Below are positions 18,625-21,475 of a stretch of DNA of 21,475 bases, in pieces (positions within the stretch are counted from its first letter, which is position 1; each line of letters opens with the position of its first letter). Made by a program: the position numbers and the translations under genes. Below the pieces are notes generated by a model. That model was not told the origin of the DNA. It saw nothing but the letters and a program-made list of their open reading frames with translations, and ran no database searches. This DNA comes from a virus: positions 1-21,475 of IMG/VR virus record IMGVR_UViG_3300033998_000382; one strand, written 5' to 3'.

Positions 18625-21063
18625 TTAACCCAACACATAGGCCCGGCCTGCCCTAGTTTGTATCCCGTCGCTGATATCCCAGGCGGCTATCTGGGCCGCA
18701 TACGAGGTAACGTCAACCTGGTCGTCATGTTCACCGCTGGGAAATGCCAGCAGTTCCGCTTCGTACTCACCCAGCCAGGGGGCGCTTTTAGGGAAATACA
18801 CCATCCCGGCCTGCATCCTGGCCGCAGCCGGCAGGGCACGGGTAACTTTATCCGTCTCTGCTTTGAGCTCCACCACCGGGAGGCCTTCACGAAGCAGCAT
18901 CTGATACAGCGTAAGACCCAAGCCTCTAGATTCTACGGCCTGGACTGCGGGCTTAAATCTCAAATACGCCTGCCTGAACAGGTTGATCTGGTCCGGTCCC
19001 TCCAGCCGCTCCCGGATAAGGTCCAGAAGCAGGAGCTCCCGGTCGGGCGTGAGCGCCCAGGTGCCCAAAACGAAATAGTCTGCCGTGGTCTTGGTGGACC
19101 CGGCCGGGTCGCAGGTCTGGAATATCCAGCAGTCCTTCTTGGGTACCCTCTTGTCGCCCTCCGGCCGGTGCAAAGTGTACCACTCAGCTTCGGTCCGGTA
19201 ATAACGGAAATATTTACGTTTGAAGATGCCCCCCTCAGCCGGCTGGGGCCGCTGCTGATAGAGGGCTGCCCAAACATAACTTCCTACGCTGGCCTTGGTA
19301 GCCTCCAACGCCTTTTCATCGTATTGCTCTGGCCATAACGCTTCACCAGGTTGTCTCCCCAAAGGATCATTTTCCTCGGCCAGGGCTGGCAACCGCAGCA
19401 CCACCCACTGGTCGGCTTGAGAATCATCCCCAGCTTGTCTTAGAAGCCGACCAGCCAGGTCGTCTTCATGCCACCTGGTAAGGACCAGGATCACGGCTGC
19501 GCCTGGGAATAGTCTCGTGCGAAGCACAAACCGGTACCAGTCCCACACCGCATCCCGCTGCACTTTGCTGTTGGCAGCCTCGGCATCTTTCACCGGGTCG
19601 TCTATGATGGCCAGATGAGCGCCCTGGCCGGTGATGGGACCACCGATGCCTGCGGCAATCATGCCGCCGGGAGGTTGCCCGGGTGGAGCATTTTTATCTA
19701 ACACGTCCCACCGGTACATGGCACTGACATCTGGATTAACTTCCAAGCCCCACACCTCAGGCGCAAACTGGGCAAAGTCGTTCCTTGCCCGCATAGAAAA
19801 GCGAGCCGCAAGGCTCGCTGTGTGAGACGCTATGATAACCCGCCGATCCGGGTGACGCCCCAGGTACCAGGCGGGAAATTTGACCGTGGTGGTTTCACTG
19901 TTGTGCGTCGGCAGCATGCCTTCGCCGACCAGGAATAGATGGGACGGGTGGTCCACCTCGATGCATACCGTGTCAGCATACCCCGCTGGTTCAATGGTAA
20001 TGTAGTTGCCCAGGAACCGTGTTCCATTTTTGCAGCGCTCTCGCTTTCTTGGCAGTGATGCTGCTTCGGAGAAGTAGAACATAACACGCCACTTGCGTCC
20101 ACATATTCTACCGTTTAACGTAGCTGTTCCCTGAATAACGGTACACTTGACACCAAGAGAACGCACTAGCTCAGTTACATCTCTTGCTAGACGCTCATTC
20201 GTGGTACAAAACTCTACCTGGCCGTCAGGCGCCACATGGCCATCGGTATCAATGAGGCCCTGCAACAACGCAATGCGTTGTTTCCTTGACGCGCGTAGAT
20301 ATTCAGGCGGAATATGTTTGTTGTTAAGCAAGCCATACTTTTTTAAGAGAACATGTAAACCAAGGATGCCAATATTCCTCTCGTCCTTATGGGGTCTGGT
20401 AACGAATCCTTCAGCCTTAATTCTCGCTAGAATATGCTCCCTGTCTTCCTCACCCTGAGTGATGAACCCGCAAGAGCTCCGGCCATCGCCGAGCCACACT
20501 CCCAGCGTGTAGGGCGGGACTGGTAGGGCGCGCTCAGGCAACTCAAGTCCGGCATGCATCGGCACCATTGGAGCGCGAAAGTCTCTCATTCGCTGCTGAC
20601 GGTGATATAGAAACTGCGTCTCCCGAATACTAAAGATCTTGCGTTTCCGGTCAAGCCTCACATACCACTCGTGCGCAGCATCAGCGAGCACGCTGGTGCC
20701 TGTGTCCGTAGTAACCCTATAAACTGGACGATTCCGCCAGACTGGCGACATACCTACTACACGGGTCACCGTGCCATCGCCAGCAAACACCTCGTCACCA
20801 GGTCGCAGAGCCTCGATGGTTGTCCAACCATGAGGCGTCGGAATCAGCGTACCGACCGCCAATGCCTTGCCATGGCGCGGAGGCATCTCCACGATTAGCC
20901 TGGAGATTTCACCCCGCTCTACGGCCATCAGATACTCCCCCAGGAGTTTTATATGCGCCGGCCGGCGATAACTGGGATCAACGTAACTGGCCCAGCCAAG
21001 GACGTGTGCCCGGGCCGCGCCTATCCTCCAGGCCTGGTTGCTTATCCTCGGCAAATATGGCAT
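18625..21063 (-). CDS. terL: Terminase large subunit with intein in its P-loop
   Basis: This is the DNA packaging motor. Numbering from the longest frame (TTG/ATG-type start at 21195), the Walker A 'MPPRHGK' ends at residue 110, and its partner 'SETTTV' resumes at 433 after an intein of 322 residues. Walker B is 'AHLAIIDDPVKD' (526-537), followed by 'LVLTRWHEDDLAGRLL'. The C-terminal nuclease shows 'CDPAGS' (D696), 'VESRGLG' (E755) and 'HDDQVD' (D824/D825). Mature protein would be about 490 aa from ATG 21063 (residue 45), which I prefer because homology-like sequence starts near there. It still overlaps the small terminase by 86 bases. No clear ribosome site precedes that ATG, so the start is uncertain. 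Without splicing the ATPase would be inactive. Confidence 0.93.
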   Translation of the reverse strand: MPYLPRISNQAWRIGAARAHVLGWASYVDPSYRRPAHIKLLGEYLMAVERGEISRLIVEMPPRHGKALAVGTLIPTPHGWTTIEALRPGDEVFAGDGTVTRVVGMSPVWRNRPVYRVTTDTGTSVLADAAHEWYVRLDRKRKIFSIRETQFLYHRQQRMRDFRAPMVPMHAGLELPERALPVPPYTLGVWLGDGRSSCGFITQGEEDREHILARIKAEGFVTRPHKDERNIGILGLHVLLKKYGLLNNKHIPPEYLRASRKQRIALLQGLIDTDGHVAPDGQVEFCTTNERLARDVTELVRSLGVKCTVIQGTATLNGRICGRKWRVMFYFSEAASLPRKRERCKNGTRFLGNYITIEPAGYADTVCIEVDHPSHLFLVGEGMLPTHNSETTTVKFPAWYLGRHPDRRVIIASHTASLAARFSMRARNDFAQFAPEVWGLEVNPDVSAMYRWDVLDKNAPPGQPPGGMIAAGIGGPITGQGAHLAIIDDPVKDAEAANSKVQRDAVWDWYRFVLRTRLFPGAAVILVLTRWHEDDLAGRLLRQAGDDSQADQWVVLRLPALAEENDPLGRQPGEALWPEQYDEKALEATKASVGSYVWAALYQQRPQPAEGGIFKRKYFRYYRTEAEWYTLHRPEGDKRVPKKDCWIFQTCDPAGSTKTTADYFVLGTWALTPDRELLLLDLIRERLEGPDQINLFRQAYLRFKPAVQAVESRGLGLTLYQMLLREGLPVVELKAETDKVTRALPAAARMQAGMVYFPKSAPWLGEYEAELLAFPSGEHDDQVDVTSYAAQIAAWDISDGIQTRAGRAYVLG
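19900..20865 (-). mobile_element. Class 3-type intein with LAGLIDADG homing endonuclease
   Basis: This is an in-frame protein-splicing element of 322 residues. It starts 'ALAVGTLIPTPHGWTTIEAL' (block A, Ala1 in place of Cys/Ser) and ends 'GMLPTHN' before Ser+1. Block B has His65 and Trp67 ('AAHEW'), block F has Cys301 ('VCIEVDHPSHLFLV') and block G has Thr320 before His321-Asn322. This is the Trp-Cys-Thr set that marks class 3 inteins, in which the block F Cys starts splicing. The endonuclease motifs are 'LGVWLGDG' (121-128) and 'LLQGLIDTDG' (200-209), with Asp127 and Asp208 as likely metal ligands, so it appears intact. The DNA looks AT-richer than the flanking extein, consistent with transfer. 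Splicing would rejoin GK and S of the Walker A motif. Confidence 0.93.
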
Positions 21064-21475
21064 CAAGAAGTTCGGGCCTTTCGGCAATAATTCGCTGGGT
21101 GATTTCGTATTCACGGCGTTCCACCACCTCCGGCCTAGCCGTAGGTTTGCCGGAGAGAAGTTGGGCATCCTGAATGGCATAGTGCATAGCACCAACTACA
21201 GCCCGGAGCCAGGCAGCGGAGTCACGATCTTTATCACCCGGCCTGGCCATAAAGGTCCTGGTTTCACGCACCCCATCCTCGGCAAGCCGATAAAGTTCGT
21301 CGGCCAGGGCCTTGAGGCGTTCCACAATGTAGTCTTTCGCTTCAGCAACAGCCTCTTGGGCCGCCTGCTTAGCCAAAGCCTCCAACTTTTTCGGGGTTCG
21401 GTTCGGTTCGTTCGGTTCGCTTGGTTCGGTTCGGTTCGCCTCCGAACGCCACCGCTTGATGGTTCCCGCCGGGAT
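20978..21475 (-). CDS. terS: Terminase small subunit (N-terminus beyond window)
   Basis: The frame is open to the window's right edge; the start lies outside. The first visible residues, 'IPAGTIKRWRSEA', are the end of the helix-turn-helix DNA-binding domain of PBSX/XtmA-type small terminases. Then comes a low-complexity linker (NRTEPSEPNEPNRTP) made by CGAAC pentamers, a helix 'KQAAQEAVAEAKDYIVERL', and 'DRDSAAWLRAVVGAMHYAIQDAQLLSGKPTARPE', the oligomerisation region ('LLSG..T.RPE' is typical). The C-terminus ends 'GPGTRPWLGQLR'. It recognises packaging sites and regulates the large terminase, whose gene overlaps it. Because the ATG is missing, full size is unknown. Confidence 0.85.
   Translation of the reverse strand: MPAGTIKRWRSEANRTEPSEPNEPNRTPKKLEALAKQAAQEAVAEAKDYIVERLKALADELYRLAEDGVRETRTFMARPGDKDRDSAAWLRAVVGAMHYAIQDAQLLSGKPTARPEVVERREYEITQRIIAERPELLDAIFAEDKQPGLEDRRGPGTRPWLGQLR
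21396..21438. repeat. GTTCG/CGAAC pentamer repeat in terS linker
   Basis: Seven complete and one partial copy of GTTCG lie in 43 bases, with one TTG interruption. On the coding strand they read CGAAC and encode the Asn/Pro/Glu/Arg/Thr linker between DNA-binding and oligomerisation domains. As 5 is not a multiple of 3, only changes of three copies keep the frame. Confidence 0.85.

Follow-up and report, generated by a model that had tools for sequence, protein, structure and literature searches.

Both class 1 and class 3 inteins occur in mycobacteriophages, whose terminases offer seven insertion sites; one of these (TerL1-a) lies between the invariant P-loop lysine and threonine of the large subunit, TerL (Kelley and colleagues, 2016, PMC5050341). 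The TerL inteins tested in that study splice, DNA cutting was demonstrated in the laboratory for two, and an unspliced TerL pentamer is considered unlikely to form (PMC5050341). A first-pass annotation of the locus described here had reasoned that packaging depends wholly on splicing, which is a sound inference and one already published (PMC5050341). It had also described class 3 inteins as much rarer than those of class 1. Class 1 is indeed the majority class among inteins overall (PMC5222942), yet among phage terminases inteins of class 3 are frequent, and the P-loop site there has been known since 2016 (PMC5050341).

The intein that we examine here interrupts terL in a complete IMG/VR record of 21,475 bases (hereafter, the window), and is an ordinary, newly found example of an element type well known at exactly the P-loop site. 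Like the TerL1-a inteins known from mycobacteriophages and from a prophage of Kocuria rhizophila, it lies between Lys and Ser/Thr of the TerL P-loop (PMC5050341); the class 3 triad is present in the actinophage TerL inteins that we read at the same position. However, the window belongs to another phage lineage, and its intein is only about 40% identical to the best annotated phage inteins. For example, Gordonia phage YungMoney gp5 and Mycobacterium phage JeTaime gp10 are annotated terminases with GK/A...N/S or T junctions (slashes mark splice junctions throughout), inteins about 41% identical to ours and the class 3 triad, but both have Ser in block B where the window intein has Asp, and that of YungMoney ends in TRN rather than THN. 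Similarly, the mycobacterial DnaB class 3 inteins of known structure (MchDnaB1, 6rix and 6riy; Msm DnaBi1, 6bs8) share with it an Ala-Leu-Ala start, DAxH-x-W, Cys F:4, Thr G:5 and a THN end, and the DnaB-type relatives that we fetched sit, like the window intein, at a P-loop GK/S site. The solved DnaB examples are nevertheless mini-inteins that lack an endonuclease, whereas the window element is full-length and resides in TerL.

Position in terL and splicing residues

The terL reading frame (18625-21195, minus strand), open through both exteins, codes for the large subunit of the terminase and 322 intervening residues. The intein runs from 20865 to 19900 on the minus strand as 322 in-frame codons with zero stops, between an upstream extein ending in IVEMPPRHGK and a downstream extein beginning SETTTVKFPA. 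The insertion point therefore falls between Lys and Ser of the Walker A loop (P-loop), splitting PPRHGK/SE, precisely as first annotated. The host gene is identified as TerL by PHROGs (phrog_38, 5.4e-107), Pfam (Terminase_6N and Terminase_6C) and NCBIfam (psiM2_ORF9), and in 300 genomes from a single phylum, chosen around a Bacillota MAG, its best match is 53% identical. Downstream of terL, on the same strand, are genes for a portal, a Mu F-like head protein, an XkdF-type protease, a virion structural protein, a tail sheath and a tape measure, and given this gene set, the window belongs to a phage or prophage with a contractile tail. Scanning the whole window for Rfam families and tRNAs gave no match. 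Upstream of terL lies a partial ORF whose position fits a small terminase subunit, although it matched no family; it contains a short series of TTCGG-type repeats at 21396-21440, which encode EPNRTEPSEPNEPNRT. The features of the locus, all on the minus strand, are as follows, with the supporting evidence in brackets.

20866..21063, minus: TerL N-extein, ending PPRHGK; likely ATG at 21063, start uncertain (loop uninterrupted in L011-L018)
19900..20865, minus: predicted class 3 intein with LAGLIDADG endonuclease, 322 aa (residues, Pfam, phmmer, alignment, AlphaFold, Foldseek)
20863..20865, minus: Ala1 (sequence)
20665..20682, minus: block B core DAAHEW, with Asp62, His65 (B:10) and Trp67 (B:12) (sequence, phmmer, census)
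20470..20508, approximate, minus: first LAGLIDADG motif region, LGVWLGDG, with Asp127 (Pfam, alignment)
20236..20275, approximate, minus: second LAGLIDADG motif region, LLQGLIDTDG, with Asp208 (Pfam, alignment)
19963..19965, minus: Cys301 (F:4), expected first nucleophile (sequence, phmmer, census)
19900..19908, minus: Thr320 (G:5), His321 and Asn322, the last at 19902-19900 (sequence, phmmer, census)
18625..19899, minus: TerL C-extein (remaining ATPase, nuclease), beginning SETTTV (Pfam Terminase_6N and Terminase_6C; PHROG 38)

The intein opens with Ala, rather than Ser, Thr or Cys, and its Trp67, Cys301 and Thr320 align with Trp B:12, Cys F:4 and Thr G:5 of the crystallised class 3 inteins. 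His65 occupies B:10, His321 is penultimate, Asn322 is terminal, and the +1 residue is Ser. As His65, Trp67, Cys301, Thr320 and Asn322 are invariant in alignments of both 7 and 49 sequences, the assignments to blocks B, F and G are upheld, including the previously proposed placement of Cys301 at F:4 and Trp67 at B:12. Searches of the PDB with phmmer retrieved the class 3 DnaB inteins (6rix, 2.3e-21; 6riy, 1.1e-20; 6bs8, 2.2e-19), in register over residues 1-68 and the C-terminal block from Cys301 to Asn322, whereas the native class 1 gp41-1 intein reached only E = 0.26. Pfam LAGLIDADG_3 and Hom_end exceed their cut-offs within the intein; Pfam Hint_2 (23.3 vs 28.4 bits) and NCBIfam intein_Cterm (12.8 vs 15.6) fall slightly under their curated ones. 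AlphaFold modelling of the intein with 49 window and locus sequences gave a mean pLDDT of 96.4, and Foldseek matched the model to 6rix, 6riy and 6bs8 at TM-scores of 0.83-0.87 (normalised by target), and over its full length to endonuclease-bearing inteins of PI-SceI type (TMq 0.73-0.79). The phmmer and Foldseek results favour class 3 splicing domains, and suggest membership of the class 3 clade, in the sense of similarity only. Every residue named in the first-pass annotation is found at the number given there, and the nearest solved relatives are of class 3, so that its identification of a class 3 intein with a WCT triad stands. From this residue signature, Cys301 would be the first nucleophile and the protein would be expected to splice.

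Census of relatives and the block B aspartate

Patterns confined to the endonuclease domain were used to gather relatives from genomes in IMG/VR and GTDB, and 166 inteins were aligned. Because the search patterns lie in that domain only, the splicing blocks are unselected in this census. Cys301 and Asn322 are present in all 166, His65 in 165, Trp67 in 164 and Thr320 in 162, and the +1 residue is Ser or Thr in 154 of the 166 as parsed by script, which misplaced the intein end in approximately 12 rows with over-long sequences, an error that touches the +1 counts and not the aligned residues. The insertion falls directly after GK in 101 of the 166 relatives and after a terminase-like PP...K loop in 21. 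In addition, tblastn identified 771 annotated phage records with relatives, 569 of them at a coverage of at least 80%.

The Asp that replaces the expected Thr in block B had been regarded as less usual, a view that the census overturns. This position is occupied by Asp in 147 of the 166 relatives (with Ser in 6, Gly in 4 and Cys in 4), and the crystallised class 3 inteins read ADAAH or ADAQH in block B; Asp is therefore typical of class 3, and Asp62 is neither an oddity nor to be taken for a defect.

Several variants were observed among the relatives. Six of the 166 end in TCN, with Cys for the penultimate His (L024, L034, L071, L103, L115 and L130), and in three of these (L071, L115 and L130) Cys additionally replaces the block B Asp. 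Two loci (L053, 866-1876; L064, 2501-3514) combine a full WCT triad with an apparent Cys start, as placed by profile alignment, and class 1 and class 3 nucleophiles may coexist in them. The same intein family also uses a second terminase P-loop site, PPRH/TKSEFA, located some two residues upstream of that in the window (L036-L042, L044, L072, L077 and others). In L116, L120, L121, L124 and numerous loci of Actinomycetota, moreover, the same endonuclease-bearing class 3 family occurs at a GK/STL P-loop with flanks that resemble DnaB helicase (AARPGVGK/STLGLD). Finally, a class 3 relative lies inside a gene annotated as "HNH endonuclease" (Mycobacterium phage ScoobyDoobyDoo gp195; L189, 901-1884), a label that may stem from the intein rather than from the host protein.

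Endonuclease, empty alleles and probable movement between terminases

The intein contains two LAGLIDADG motifs, each with an acidic end residue (Asp127 and Asp208), and matches PF14528 at 33.4 bits against a cut-off of 22.5. In comparison with the relative L002, its endonuclease part has a pN of 0.134 vs a pS of 0.78, synonymous sites being saturated; that pN should remain at 0.13 despite such saturation indicates that the endonuclease has been under selection. Purifying selection is evident on both the splicing and endonuclease parts, and the earlier impression of an intact LAGLIDADG domain is borne out by the presence of both motifs and by this constraint.

Intein-free terL alleles, which the first-pass annotation had proposed to look for, do exist: eight TerLs (L011-L018) share 60-68% identity with the window TerL in its spliced form and have an uninterrupted PPRHGKSE, and no intein was found elsewhere in those of their records that were tested. 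The closest inteins, by contrast, come from uncultivated viruses in IMG/VR (L002, L003 and L004), where they also comprise 322 aa, occupy the TerL site PPRFGK/SE and are 78% identical to the window intein across all 322 residues. Their host genes differ markedly, with TerL exteins that share just 40% (N) and 53% (C) identity with those of the window, and C-exteins that are AT-rich on the L002 side (37% GC vs 59% in the window). The extein tree places the window among intein-free TerLs with L002 outside, whereas window and L002 group together at 100/100 in the intein tree, and the path between the two is 0.29 for the intein vs about 1.1 for the exteins. Given this disparity in identity, the gap in GC and the conflict between trees, the sequences are better explained by horizontal homing among divergent terminases than by vertical descent.

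An alternative explanation for this pattern is vertical inheritance, with loss of the intein in the intein-free relatives and no horizontal homing into the window lineage. Loss in L011-L018 is possible, since L103, which branches just outside the clade, has an intein in its TerL, and inteins are less diverged than exteins in some other groups too; if inteins evolve more slowly than exteins, as they may, the argument for transfer is weakened. However, the pair L006 and L026 shows the opposite, the intein diverging more than the extein, and the excess of intein over extein identity between window and L002 is large. Consequently, we consider vertical inheritance unlikely, though it is the alternative that deserves most weight.

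Proposed route of splicing and homing

We are highly confident that the terL of this contractile-tailed phage or prophage carries a class 3 intein that is both mobile and bifunctional, splicing and homing by the following route, the chemical steps, splicing and cutting of which are modelled on class 3 biochemistry, where Cys F:4 acts first (PMC5222942, PMC7664689) and is obligatory in the inteins tested (PMC5222942). A single precursor would be translated from terL, in which Cys301, positioned by Trp67 and forming a protease-like triad with His65 and Thr320, which activate it, would directly attack the peptide bond between the P-loop Lys and Ala1. The N-extein would then be transferred to Ser+1, and cyclisation of Asn322, aided by His321, followed by an acyl shift, would rebuild the PPRHGKSE loop and so yield an active packaging ATPase. 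The LAGLIDADG activity would cut intein-free terL at the conserved codon run, and repair would copy the intein in. It is conceivable, albeit improbable, that splicing is conditional, with Cys301 reversibly oxidised or metal-bound in the host and DNA packaging awaiting a host signal; the analogy is with mycobacterial DnaB inteins, for which redox and zinc control are reported (PMC6195587, PMC7360933).

Alternatively, the residues could have been kept in a remnant that no longer splices, leaving a broken terL allele, and such a class 3 pseudogene is documented in Arthrobacter (Arth_1007; PMC3196547). That pseudogene, however, lacks Cys F:4 and His B:10, whereas the window intein has every catalytic residue; the frame is open through both exteins, which match terminase profiles, and purifying selection acts on the splicing and endonuclease parts alike. 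An inactive remnant is thus supported neither by the sequence nor by selection, and we regard it as very improbable. More doubtful still is a class 2-like route, in which Ser+1 attacks the N-terminal junction directly with Cys301 a bystander: Ala at position 1 is permitted in class 2 as well, but the WCT signature is complete and kept in nearly all relatives, the nearest solved inteins are of class 3, and the obligatory role of Cys F:4 noted above argues against it.

The window intein, read as a mobile class 3 element, opens no new mechanism. It provides a well-resolved example, complete with empty alleles, of the apparent movement of class 3 inteins among distantly related phage terminases at the P-loop.
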